A stretch of 33,001 nucleotides of DNA from a virus, in IMG/VR virus record IMGVR_UViG_3300028831_000260, positions 1 to 33,001 of that record; one strand, given 5' to 3'. Below are positions 9,423-31,447 of this stretch, piece by piece. The notes under the pieces are model-generated. The model was not told the origin of the DNA. It did not search any database and worked only from the letters and a program-made list of their open reading frames with translations. How positions within the stretch are numbered: the first letter of the stretch is position 1; every line of letters begins with the position of its first letter. A program made the position numbers and the translations under genes.

Positions 9423-9620
9423 ATGCCACAAACCCCTTCGTCGACGCGGTGGCGTGCTGTCACCGACCTGACTGTGGAACCGCGGGGCTCGACCCCGTTG
9501 GTGTTCAAGGCCGGGGAGGAATGCAAGGGCGTCCCGGAGAACTGGCCCCCGAAGTGGCTGGTTGATCAGGAACTGGTGGTCCCGGTCGTGGACGACCAGC
9601 CCGGGAAGGTGGGTAACTGA
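9423..9620 (+). CDS. Small protein upstream of the major tail gene
   Basis: The 65-residue product contains a short conserved-looking core (RAVTDLTVEPRGSTPLVFKAGEEC and PPKWLVDQELVVP). ATG 9423 lies 10 bases after GGAGGG at 9407-9412, and its stop overlaps the next ATG. I do not recognise a family. Location between tail completion and tail tube genes suggests an accessory tail-assembly or structural role. Confidence 0.65.
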   Translation: MPQTPSSTRWRAVTDLTVEPRGSTPLVFKAGEECKGVPENWPPKWLVDQELVVPVVDDQPGKVGN

Positions 9621-10357
9621 TGGCTACGAAGGCGCTGCGGGGTTCCCGCGCCACAATCTATGTTGACGGTTTGAACGCGTCGGCGTTCCTGAACGAGTAT
9701 GAGATCGAGGCCGAGCGGGAGGATTTGGAGTTTTCCCCGTTCGAGTCCGACGACAAGCAGTTCCTCGCGGGCCCATCCGAGAACACGGTCACTTTGACGG
9801 GTGCGTGGAACGGGGACACGGACTCGTTGGACGCCCAGCTGGACGCCACGTTCGGTGGGGACGTCGACAACGTCATCACGGTTTGTCCTGGTGGTGTGGC
9901 CGCCACCGGGAAGGGCGTGTACCTCCTCGCCGGCACGAACGTGAACTACAAGGTCAGCGCGGCGTCGGATGAGATCGCTGAGGCGGAGGCCGAGTTCCGT
10001 TCCGCGCGGCTGCGTGGGGTCATCCTGCAGGGGCCGACGGTGGTGTCGGCCACCGGTAACGGGTCACCGAATGTGTCAGCGGCTCCTGCGACGACGAAGG
10101 GGGCCACGGCGCACCTGCATGTTCTCGCGGTGACCGGCACCCCCACCTCGGTCGCGATTTCGGTGGAGCATTCCGCGGATGGCACCACGTGGGCGAGCCT
10201 GGCATCGTTCCCCACGATCACCACAGGTGGGGCTGGCTATCAGGTGTCGACGGCGAACACCGCGACGGTGAATGTGCAGCTCCGCGCGAAGCACGCCATC
10301 ACCGGCGGCACAACCCCCACGGTGACCTACGTCCTCGCCGCCGGCCGCTACCGGTAA
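9620..10357 (+). CDS. Major tail protein
   Basis: The 245-residue protein has the N-terminal strand pattern of siphovirus tube proteins (SRATIYVDGLNASAFLNEYEIEAEREDLEFSPF), the central TVTLTGAWNGDTDSLDAQLD segment and an acidic AEAEFRSARLRGVIL stretch. A C-terminal Gly/Thr-rich beta domain (about residues 150-245, TPTSVAISVEHSADGTTW) looks like a surface-exposed appended module. It polymerises around the tape measure to form the tail tube. ATG 9620 overlaps the previous stop; order before chaperones and tape measure agrees. Confidence 0.92.
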   Translation: MATKALRGSRATIYVDGLNASAFLNEYEIEAEREDLEFSPFESDDKQFLAGPSENTVTLTGAWNGDTDSLDAQLDATFGGDVDNVITVCPGGVAATGKGVYLLAGTNVNYKVSAASDEIAEAEAEFRSARLRGVILQGPTVVSATGNGSPNVSAAPATTKGATAHLHVLAVTGTPTSVAISVEHSADGTTWASLASFPTITTGGAGYQVSTANTATVNVQLRAKHAITGGTTPTVTYVLAAGRYR

Positions 10358-24232: not shown

Positions 24233-24850
24233 ATGCTGTTCCACCCGTTCCTGCTCACCGCCGGCGTCGGTGCCGCGATGCTGATCGGCACCATGCCAGC
24301 CGCCGCGGTCGCCGTTGACGGCCCCAACTCGTCGGCGTGCGCGACCGCGTCCGCGGATGTCCTGGTCCACGCTGTCGCGGTCGTCGGCGAGGCCAGCAAG
24401 CTCGACCAGGCACAGAAGGCCCGGATCGAGCAGTTGACCGCGGACGTGAAGGCGGCGCAGGCCGCTTTCGACAAGGCCGTCGATGCTGTAGTCGCCGCGG
24501 GCGACAAGGTAACCCCCGCCCAGGTCGCCACGATGGAGACCGCACGGCGGGACCTGGAGAAGAAGACGAAGGCGCTTCAGGACGCGGTTGATGGTCTGCC
24601 CCCGACGGCGCTGCTGCTCGGTCTGACCACGAAGCTCGACGCGGCCGTTGAACTGCGGAACAAGGTGTGCGCCGGCACGATCCCCACCTCGACACCGACC
24701 CCCACGCCGACCCCGACACCGACCCCGACACCGACCCCGACTCCGACGATCACGGTGCCCCCGGCGCCAACACCTGCTCCGCGGATTGAGCGCCCCGCTC
24801 CCCAGGTGATCCGGGTCCCGGTTGGGCCCGCGGAAACGGGTGGGATGTAG
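24233..24850 (+). CDS. Secreted coiled-coil protein with Thr-Pro linker, possible sortase partner
   Basis: The 205-residue protein has an N-terminal signal-like hydrophobic segment (about residues 3-27) ending in AAA, a helical coiled-coil domain (about 50-135), two Cys, and a Thr-Pro repeat linker (about 152-175) of the kind that spans Gram-positive walls. It ends GPAETGGM, which resembles the sortase motif LPAETG but lacks the leading Leu and the usual membrane anchor and basic tail. GAGGAGA at 24220-24226 precedes ATG 24233. The next gene, a sortase, starts directly at its stop. Partnership is inferred from adjacency and the motif-like end. Confidence 0.62.
   Translation: MLFHPFLLTAGVGAAMLIGTMPAAAVAVDGPNSSACATASADVLVHAVAVVGEASKLDQAQKARIEQLTADVKAAQAAFDKAVDAVVAAGDKVTPAQVATMETARRDLEKKTKALQDAVDGLPPTALLLGLTTKLDAAVELRNKVCAGTIPTSTPTPTPTPTPTPTPTPTPTITVPPAPTPAPRIERPAPQVIRVPVGPAETGGM
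24695..24742 (+). repeat. Four tandem 12-base repeats coding Thr-Pro
   Basis: Units of CCGACCCCGACA type occupy 24695-24706, 24707-24718, 24719-24730 and 24731-24742; the middle two are identical. They encode the TPTP linker of the secreted protein and are likely to vary in copy number by slippage. Confidence 0.88.
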
Positions 24851-25447
24851 ATGCGCAGACCCCTCACTGTGGGGGTTCTCGCCGCCGTCCTGGTCGGGTG
24901 TGGCGCACCGGTAGCTGTGGACCCCGCTGGGGCCCCCGACCCCCACAACGAGACCGGTCAGCGGTCCGGGTCGTACACCCCGGGGCCGGCACCGACGGCG
25001 CTGCTGATCCCCCGGATCGGGGTGAACACCCCGCTTGACCCGCTGGGTCTCGACCCCGACGGGACCGTTGAGGAACCACCGGTGACCCAGCCGGACGTGA
25101 CCGGCTGGTACAGCCTGGGGGTGCGGCCCGGCGACCAGGGACCGGCGGTGATCCTCGGGCATGTATCGGGCCGGCCACCGGGTGCACCACGTGCGATCCC
25201 GGGGGTGTTCGCGCGGCTGTCCACCCTCCAGGTCGGCGACGAGGTCACCGTCGAACGTGCGGGTGCTCCCGCTGTCCGGTTCACGGTGTACGACCGGAAA
25301 ACGGTTCTGAAGGACCGGTTCCCGACCGTCGCGGTGTACGGCAACACCGCCGGCCCCGAACTGAGGCTGATCACCTGCGGTGGCCGATTCCGACCTGAGG
25401 TCGCCTCCTACGAATCCAACATCATCGTCTGGGCCAAGGTGGTATGA
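24851..25447 (+). CDS. Class F-type sortase with lipoprotein signal
   Basis: The 198-residue protein has an N-terminal lipobox (LVGC, Cys17) and a sortase domain: IPRIGVNTPLDPLGL, the catalytic His104 in VILGHVSG, and Cys176 in LRLITCGG, followed by SYESNIIVWA. This is the class F pattern common in Actinomycetota. The catalytic Arg is uncertain: R179 and R181 are close to the Cys, while positions 188-189, where SrtA-like spacing would put it, are Glu-Ser. Sortases link proteins to peptidoglycan or build pili; the substrate is unknown. ATG 24851 abuts the preceding stop, so the pair is coupled. A sortase in the late region of a phage is unusual. Confidence 0.85.
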   Translation: MRRPLTVGVLAAVLVGCGAPVAVDPAGAPDPHNETGQRSGSYTPGPAPTALLIPRIGVNTPLDPLGLDPDGTVEEPPVTQPDVTGWYSLGVRPGDQGPAVILGHVSGRPPGAPRAIPGVFARLSTLQVGDEVTVERAGAPAVRFTVYDRKTVLKDRFPTVAVYGNTAGPELRLITCGGRFRPEVASYESNIIVWAKVV

Positions 25448-29753: not shown

Positions 29754-30998
29754 TCAGGTCGCACGGGCCAGGGTGGCGTACTCCGCCGCCGACACACCGA
29801 ACGTGGCCGCCGCCGCCGAAATCGGGTCGGGCACGTCGGCGGGGACGGGCAACCCGAAACTACGTCGGGTGCCGTCCCGGTCCAACGACGCGTTATCGCA
29901 GATCAGGATGCGCGCGGGCTCGTCGTACAGGTCGACCAGGGCGGCCGGCAGGTCGTAGAGGCGCAGCACCCGGCCCGGGTTCCCCGGATCAGGTGTGGCC
30001 CCGCCGACCTGGACCAGGGACGCTTCGGCGACGAACCGGTCCCAGCCGCGGCGCTCGATCGCGCACCGGCGAACTTCCGCGTTCCGCTCCCGCAGGACCT
30101 GGTCGAGAGCCCAGCCGTCGCCCTCGACCAGGTCCGCTGGGACGGCGACACCGTGCCACCAGTGACCGTGGTAGCCGTCGGCGTAGGTCAGCGCTGGGCC
30201 CCCGTCACGGTGCAGGCGGCCCTGCCCGTCGCGGCACAGCACGGTGGGCCGGTCGGTGAGGACCACCGCGCCGCGCAACGGCCACCAACAGTCGACGGCC
30301 TTCACCGCTGCGGCCATGCTGTCCAGCCGGGGCGGGCGGCCCAGCCCGGCGATGTCCATGGCGCGTGTGTAGAACACAGCCCAGTAGGCGTCCCGCCACG
30401 GGCCAATCTGGCCCGTTAGCTGGGGCCCGAGCTGGTCCCCGAGCTGGTCCCAGAGCTGGTCCCCGAGCTGGTCCCAGAGCTGGTCCCAGAGCTGGTCCCC
30501 GAGCTGGTCCCAGAGCTGACCCCCGAGCTGGTCCCAGAGCTGGTCCCAGAGCTGGACCCCGAGCTGACCCCCGAGCTGGTCCCAGAGCTGGTCCCAGAGC
30601 TGGACCCCGAGCTGGACCCGGAGCTGGTCCCCGAGCTGGCCCCCGAGCTGGACCCGGAGCTGGTCCCGGAGTTGGTCCCGGATCTGGTCCCCGAGCTGGA
30701 CCCGGAGCTGGTCCCCGAGCTGGTCCCGGATCTGGTCCCGGAGCTGGGCCCGATTCGCGGGCAGGACGTGGTGGCGCAGCACAGCGGACGCCAGGAGGCC
30801 CCCGGGGGGGGAGTCCATCCAGACGACGACCGGCGGCCGAGGCAACCCAGCGGTCTCATAGGCGGCGAAGACAGCCTGCTCGGCCCCGGCCCGGTCGCAC
30901 CGTTCCGTGGACAGCGCGGTGCGCATCCAGTCGTCGCGGAGCGCGACTGTATCTGCGATCTGCTGGTCGGTGAGTGTCCCCGCGTACATCTCAGACAC
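29754..30998 (-). CDS. DUF6745-like protein with 29 tandem x-x-Q-L tetrapeptides
   Basis: The 414-residue protein has an N-terminal domain (RDDWMRTALSTERCDRAGAEQAVFAAYETAG, then PPVVVWMDSPPGG), a continuous run of 29 tetrapeptides such as WDQL, GDQL, RVQL (residues 83-198), and a conserved C-terminal domain (CWWPLRGAVVLTDRPTVLCRD, YADGYHGHWWHGVAVP). This three-part pattern matches DUF6745 proteins of Actinomycetota, whose function is unknown. GTG at 30998 is preceded by GAGAGAGGGG; an alternative ATG at 31025 overlaps the upstream stop (ATGA) and adds nine residues. The repeat stretch probably forms a long helix and varies in length by slippage. Confidence 0.75.
   Translation of the reverse strand: MSEMYAGTLTDQQIADTVALRDDWMRTALSTERCDRAGAEQAVFAAYETAGLPRPPVVVWMDSPPGGLLASAVLRHHVLPANRAQLRDQIRDQLGDQLRVQLGDQIRDQLRDQLRVQLGGQLGDQLRVQLGVQLWDQLWDQLGGQLGVQLWDQLWDQLGGQLWDQLGDQLWDQLWDQLGDQLWDQLGDQLGPQLTGQIGPWRDAYWAVFYTRAMDIAGLGRPPRLDSMAAAVKAVDCWWPLRGAVVLTDRPTVLCRDGQGRLHRDGGPALTYADGYHGHWWHGVAVPADLVEGDGWALDQVLRERNAEVRRCAIERRGWDRFVAEASLVQVGGATPDPGNPGRVLRLYDLPAALVDLYDEPARILICDNASLDRDGTRRSFGLPVPADVPDPISAAAATFGVSAAEYATLARAT
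30405..30752 (-). repeat. 29 tandem 12-base repeats
   Basis: Seen on the plus strand as repeated GAGCTGGTCCCA and one- or two-base variants, these run without phase break for 348 bases. They encode W-D-Q-L, G-D-Q-L, R-V-Q-L, G-V-Q-L and G-G-Q-L. There are no spacers, so it is not a CRISPR array. Confidence 0.95.
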
Positions 30999-31021
30999 GC
31001 CGGGGCCCCTCTCTCTCCTCG

Positions 31022-31447
31022 TCATGACGTCGCGCCCTGTTGGTGGATCTGCGCGGCCGTAGCGCGGAAGGTGTCGATGACCCGCTCGGGTGCGCCCTCC
31101 CTTGCGGCTGTGTCCGACCTGGCGAACAGCTCCAGGGGATCGGCGTGCCCGAGCTGAGCGTTGACAGCGCTGAGCGTCTTTGAGCAGACCCACGCACGCT
31201 GCCGGGGGCAGAGTGGTGGGGACCCCCTCACCCCGAGTGCCAGGAACAGGGCACCCCCGGCGCAGCAGCTTCCACCCGGCTTCCACTCGCCGGCGGCCCC
31301 TGAGTCGGGAGAGGTGGGGTCCCACCAGCCCCGGTGGTACAGCCCAACCTCCTCGACCAGGTCCGCGGCGGTGTCCAACGCATCCGCGATCCGAGCGGGG
31401 GTCAGCTCATCGGGCGGGACGGGGGTGTCGGGTAGCCTGGTGCGCAC
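31022..31447 (-). CDS. DUF6197-like protein
   Basis: The 141-residue minus-strand protein has an N-terminal helix (PARIADALDTAADLVEEVGLYHRGWW), a Cys-containing helix CCAGGALFLALG (residues 61-72) and a C-terminal helix (ERVIDTFRATAAQIHQQ). DUF6197 proteins of actinobacteria and their phages share this helix, central CALGAL-like motif and closing helix order. Function unknown. GTG at 31447 is preceded by AAGGAGG, and its stop overlaps an ATG of the DUF6745-like gene. Four extra Cys are spread through the middle. Confidence 0.6.
   Translation of the reverse strand: MRTRLPDTPVPPDELTPARIADALDTAADLVEEVGLYHRGWWDPTSPDSGAAGEWKPGGSCCAGGALFLALGVRGSPPLCPRQRAWVCSKTLSAVNAQLGHADPLELFARSDTAAREGAPERVIDTFRATAAQIHQQGATS

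Follow-up and report, generated by a model that had tools for sequence, protein, structure and literature searches.

How would a phage come to encode a sortase, an enzyme class that works on the bacterial surface, directly beside a secreted protein that might be its substrate? The question is raised by two adjoining genes in a 33,001-base virus record, IMGVR_UViG_3300028831_000260 (68% G+C), which is called 'the window' here. The first-pass annotation had read these genes as a secreted protein and a class F-type lipoprotein sortase, by which the phage might attach its own protein to the host wall. The features of the locus are collected in Table 1.

The contig is a genuine tailed phage. Its genes are typical of such a phage (TerL, portal, head protease, major head protein, adaptor, major tail protein, tape measure and tail proteins), an amidase endolysin is encoded as well, and the pair is sited between the tail genes and the endolysin gene. 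Host DNA mistaken for virus was rejected as an explanation, both for the window and for the 26 terminase-bearing contigs described below. Judged by the portal, the closest isolated phages are Arthrobacter phages (44 to 47% identity), and no substrate-sortase pair was found in those Arthrobacter phages that have closely related structural modules. When actinobacterial genomes, 50 named and 395 class-wide, were searched for the portal, a single strong relative (47%) turned up, and it was without the pair. The pair was absent from the 40 kb examined of prophage G456, whose TerL and head protein are 56% and 61% identical to those of the window. Since related structural modules occur without it, the pair is an accessory module and not an essential one. 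Elsewhere in the window, a gene on the minus strand (29754-31325) encodes a DUF6745 domain; a segment inside it (30408-30752) has 90.5% DNA identity to prophiGD102-1, a prophage of Mycobacterium abscessus, and nothing else in the right half of the window closely matched a phage record.

Table 1. Features of the substrate-sortase locus; positions are those of the window
Feature	Position	Strand	Basis
Secreted sortase substrate, 205 aa	24233..24850	+	ORF with signal peptide; P-x-G-x-x-x-T-G end common to class F sortase partners
Substrate signal peptide, about residues 1-27	24233..24313	+	Sequence reading: hydrophobic stretch that ends in AVA
Helical region, residues 34-146, with conserved Cys36 and Cys146	24332..24670	+	AlphaFold2 model and alignment
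Thr-Pro/Pro-rich linker, (TP)n	24671..24817	+	Sequence; no secondary structure in model
Sorting motif P196-VGPAETG-G204, one residue before protein end	24818..24844	+	P196 and G198 invariant; same motif before TM and RRR in cellular partners
Class F sortase, 198 aa, predicted lipoprotein	24851..25447	+	NF033748 166.5 bits, PF04203 67 bits, sortase fold
Lipobox LVGC, Cys17	24890..24901	+	Sequence
Catalytic His104	25160..25162	+	Invariant in 115/115
Arg172 (LRLITC), candidate catalytic-arginine replacement	25364..25366	+	Arg in 110/115
Catalytic Cys176, in LRLITC	25376..25378	+	Invariant in 115/115
Asn190, canonical strand beta-8 arginine position	25418..25420	+	Alignment with class E sortase 5go6, which has Arg there

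The assignment of the downstream gene to a class F-type sortase was borne out, narrowly as regards the class and with a sortase fold. The Pfam Sortase profile PF04203 was matched well above its cut-off of 26.6 bits, and the NCBIfam class F profile NF033748 was barely over its cut-off of 166 bits; among ten other phage sortases compared with the latter cut-off, four were above it and six scored 135 to 156 bits. The AlphaFold2 model of the sortase had a pLDDT of 89, with values above 90 through the domain, and matched sortases of classes E, C and A when compared with the PDB by Foldseek (E about 1e-8). Of 23 phage sortases checked, most have a lipobox-like motif close to the N-terminus. A possible sortase-like protein, PDB 5uus, gave a weak match to the family profile (E 0.0035) and is without the LITCGG segment; if it is the enzyme of C. 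acnes that the literature calls class F, that name and NF033748 may refer to different families.

Both of the catalytic residues first noted in the sequence, His104 and Cys176, were found, and neither varies among the 115 aligned family members. All sortases are stated to have a His-Cys-Arg triad (PMC13257024), and in the window sortase the arginine of strand beta-8 is missing. The canonical position is occupied by Asn in 109 of the 115 members, Gln in 4 and Arg in only 2, from Planococcus and Thermomicrobium. Since 113 members have Asn or Gln, including cellular enzymes encoded beside classical substrates, absence of the canonical arginine is no sign of inactivity, and the argument for a dead enzyme was rejected: Asn190 characterises the family and does not reflect a loss by the window phage. 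The doubt raised at the outset, that the sortase might lack a usable arginine and activity, was thus right about the canonical place, yet inactivity does not follow from it. Arg172 lies on the strand leading to the cysteine; it is absent from the two members with canonical arginine and from three others. The catalytic arginine may have moved to position 172 in the class F family, in cellular and phage enzymes alike, a relocation that we propose as a hypothesis because it has only two counter-examples.

The junction of the two genes was confirmed together with the secreted nature of the partner, the TAG stop of the substrate gene being followed at once by the ATG of the sortase gene. The partner has a signal peptide, as read from the sequence, and a recognition motif near its C-terminus, which is VPVGPAETGGM (...QVIRVPVGPAETGGM). 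As had been noticed, there is no C-terminal membrane segment: the hydrophobic helix and basic tail that should come after the motif are missing here, and they are missing in 34 other phage contigs as well. A tail concealed by a frameshift was rejected, since the frames after the stop encode no transmembrane segment in the window and the 34 other contigs are equally tail-less. In the AlphaFold2 model the window substrate has helices at residues 34-92, 95-120 and 125-146. The same organisation recurs in 14 aligned phage substrates: the signal peptide is followed by a Cys, a helical region and another Cys, and a linker, either Thr/Pro or acidic, then leads to the motif. No variation was seen among them at Cys36, Cys146, P196 or G198, and we infer a disulfide between the two cysteines. 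The other phage partner proteins likewise have an N-terminus that reads as hydrophobic. Two of the 14 aligned substrates (L024:6970-7857 and L025:7153-7878) contain an Excalibur calcium-binding domain between linker and motif.

The end GPAETGGM had been likened to LPAETG. The likeness is real, and the better comparison is with a motif associated with class F sortases, P-x-G-x-x-x-T-G, rather than with a degenerate LPXTG. A class F sortase gene in an actinobacterial plasmid or genome commonly has, directly upstream, the gene of a secreted protein whose C-terminal part bears this motif and, after it, a hydrophobic helix and then a basic tail (RRR). Examples are VPKGHPETGGG with a transmembrane segment and RRRR in Nonomuraea (L007), IPKGHPETGAG in Rhodococcus (L003) and VPSGAPDTG in Streptomyces (L002). 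The phage substrate end, ...RVPVGPAETGGM, is the class-F-associated motif, after which the protein stops; cleavage is predicted between Thr202 and Gly203. Could the neighbour be no substrate at all, and its end a coincidence? The motif is short and partly of low complexity, which would make chance resemblance easier; against this, all 23 of the first phage partner proteins have a recognisable form of it, and the strict core PxG(2-3)[TA]G occurs within the last 45 residues of 20 of them, compared with 5 of 457 other gene-called proteins of the same loci. Moreover, cellular partners bear the same motif ahead of a full sorting tail. The motif of the phage partners is more than chance, and we give coincidence a probability close to nil. 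Judged from its sequence, the tail-less, motif-bearing partner is what a sortase substrate requires.

Lack of conservation in other phages had been set beforehand as the chief ground for refuting the proposal, and the proposal came through this test. A single-sequence scan gave no matches and the first profile (A1) was too diverse for scanning the collection; when IMG/VR was scanned four times under the guidance of profiles, 37 further contigs with this sortase were obtained. In 34 of these the product of the upstream gene is secreted and has the motif but no membrane tail, so that, window included, a substrate without the helix stands next to the sortase in 35 of 38 viral contigs. In the 35 tail-less proteins, the residues after TG number at most 6 in 25 cases, 9 to 13 in five and about 19 to 26 in five (L017 and L172 by eye). 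The three remaining contigs (L158, L173 and L174) have the cellular, transmembrane form and no terminase match; they may be host DNA or fragments. At one of the 35 tail-less loci, substrate and sortase are separated by an inserted HNH endonuclease gene (L047:5076-5693).

A terminase was found on 26 contigs, representing at least three PHROG families, and every one of the 26 has the tail-less form. Cellular pairs whose partner was identified were classified by script and by eye, at loci picked for their likeness to the phage sortases; 17 of 70 were tail-less (Fisher p = 2e-12, a value to be read with the reservation that contigs are not independent and that the partner at some loci was picked by its motif). 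We conclude that substrate and sortase genes are passed on as a pair in diverse tailed phages, nearly always without a C-terminal membrane anchor.

These 17 cellular cases (L052, L056, L059, L061, L063, L074, L079, L083, L084, L095, L101, L102, L106, L109, L112, L113 and L119) led us to reject the notion that the tail-less form is found in phages only. They lie mostly in Pseudonocardiales chromosomes, with no shared phage genes nearby, which indicates that tail loss was not invented by phages alone. At several cellular loci, two class F sortases are encoded near each other (L049:6001-6615 and 9535-10137; L050, L102 and L113 are alike). In a tree many of whose forks are unresolved, the phage sortases fall mostly among Pseudonocardiales enzymes, and at least two transfers are required. 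Cellular Pseudonocardiales pairs as the closest relatives, the transfers and the patchy presence of the pair speak for a captured cellular pair that has no phage role and is decaying or passing through. Against it stand the open frames of the sortases read, an active site that is invariant, pN/pS values below 1 in five comparisons, and a pairing kept in 35 of 38 contigs and across several terminase lineages. We regard this explanation as very improbable.

If the pair has a role in the phage, its position may indicate when it is used. In five contigs (L015, L020, L023, L028 and L037) it lies beside terminase or portal genes. The window, L022, L024 and L033 have it between tail and lysis genes; in the last two, the lysis gene was recognised from a weak match or from its resemblance to the window endolysin. 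In many loci the stop and start of substrate and sortase overlap by 4 bases, which suggests that the two proteins are probably made together; in L028 and L037, the substrate gene overlaps the preceding gene too. As far as gene order can tell, this favours late expression and co-synthesis of the pair.

The main rival reading is that the pair is a moron or lysogenic-conversion module, the wall-attached protein serving the lysogen (a surface property, adhesion or development) and not the lytic cycle. Four contigs (L016, L039, L146 and L149) carry IMG genome-type numbers like those of isolate genomes and are, from their names, probably prophages; the cellular class F pairs are chromosomal; the site between tail and lysis genes in the window is a usual one for morons; and SasX shows that prophages carry wall-anchored proteins (PMC10232760). 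A pair serving the lysogen would not be expected to overlap or abut terminase or portal genes as it does in L015, L028 and L037, where co-transcription with head genes is suggested, and no sigma-70-like promoter was found around the window pair, in a scan that is poor for GC-rich actinobacteria. Lysogenic conversion thus appears unlikely to us, while being the most serious of the alternatives.

We consider it reasonably probable that the pair is a late-expressed phage module by which a protein of the phage becomes attached to the wall of the host cell. The substrate would be exported by Sec, and the lipid-anchored sortase would cut the Thr-Gly bond near its end and transfer it to a peptidoglycan precursor, so that the helical domain would stand out from the wall on a flexible stalk. 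Wall attachment of the substrate is what we infer from the two genes as read, and a limit to this reading is that an anchor-less substrate might diffuse off before it is processed. The lack of a membrane hold on tail-less substrates, together with the displacement of the arginine needed by canonical sortases, would also suit an enzyme acting as a hydrolase or as a ligase joining substrate to protein, whose product would be released or polymerised instead of wall-bound. Family members encoded beside classical, transmembrane-anchored substrates share the same active-site residues, however, and sortases are in general transpeptidases; we therefore hold such an activity to be decidedly unlikely.

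With wall attachment as the preferred reading, it is probable that certain phages remodel the surface of their host cell during infection. A further step, for which there is less support, is that progeny or rival phages would fail to adsorb to the altered cell or its debris; blocking of adsorption or superinfection is plausible and speculative, being argued by analogy. The other roles put forward by the first-pass annotation, masking of receptors and retention of progeny on cells, are likewise speculative. In its widest form, the proposal is that actinobacterial tailed phages have complete, self-sufficient systems for ligating protein to the wall (a class F sortase with relocated arginine and an anchor-less substrate), used late to coat cell and debris against adsorption. 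Phage sortase systems and tail-less sorting signals would then both be on record for the first time. This wide form we advance tentatively, and as a whole it is rather doubtful.

The recurrent pair gives class F sortases a concrete substrate rule, for whose test a single peptide would do. Sorting, it further suggests, can dispense with a membrane tail, and the arginine of a working sortase family may lie at another position. If the substrate is indeed attached, phages would have a covalent route for remodelling the Gram-positive surface. The statement that no system of this form had been described has held so far: tblastn of two different phage sortases against 50,697 phage records gave no match (other sortase classes could escape such a search), the sortase model had no match at E 0.001 in a viral structure library although PDB sortases were found easily, PHROG had no family for the sortase, and no paper on a phage-encoded sortase was found in the open-access literature. 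Phage-encoded sortases thus appear to be undescribed.

Several systems can nevertheless be compared with the window pair. The tail-less pairs of Pseudonocardiales resemble it in belonging to the same sortase clade and in having the same tail-less motif, and differ from it in being chromosomal and in their other substrate domains; we know of no description of them. The class F sortases SrtF1-4 of Actinoplanes missouriensis belong to the same enzyme class, whose physiological role is called unknown; some of their genes lie beside that of a secreted protein of unknown function, and a quadruple sortase mutant had no phenotype (PMC13251363). The same 2026 study set aside two neighbouring secreted proteins as substrates for want of the standard pentapeptide, while considering them possible by gene context (PMC13251363); going by that description, the P-x-G-x-x-x-T-G motif would fit these neighbours. 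The actinobacterial relatives that we examined share the Asn in place of the canonical arginine. Unlike actinobacterial class F enzymes, the window sortase is phage-borne, in what appears to be a late operon, and its substrate stops at the motif, whereas cellular substrates mostly go on to a transmembrane segment and RRR.

Comparison with SasX of staphylococcal SPbeta-like prophages brings out another difference: SasX has a full LPXTG tail and depends on the host sortase, whereas the window phage itself supplies the sortase, and its sorting signal has no tail. SasX is likewise phage-encoded and anchored to the cell wall (PMC10232760). The lipoprotein Llp of phage T5 acts on a Gram-negative host, where it binds a receptor in the outer membrane, with no sortase involved; what it may share with the window pair is a purpose, a change of the infected-cell surface such that phages no longer adsorb to the cell or its fragments, and it is in this sense a precedent for the purpose proposed here (PMC9586334).
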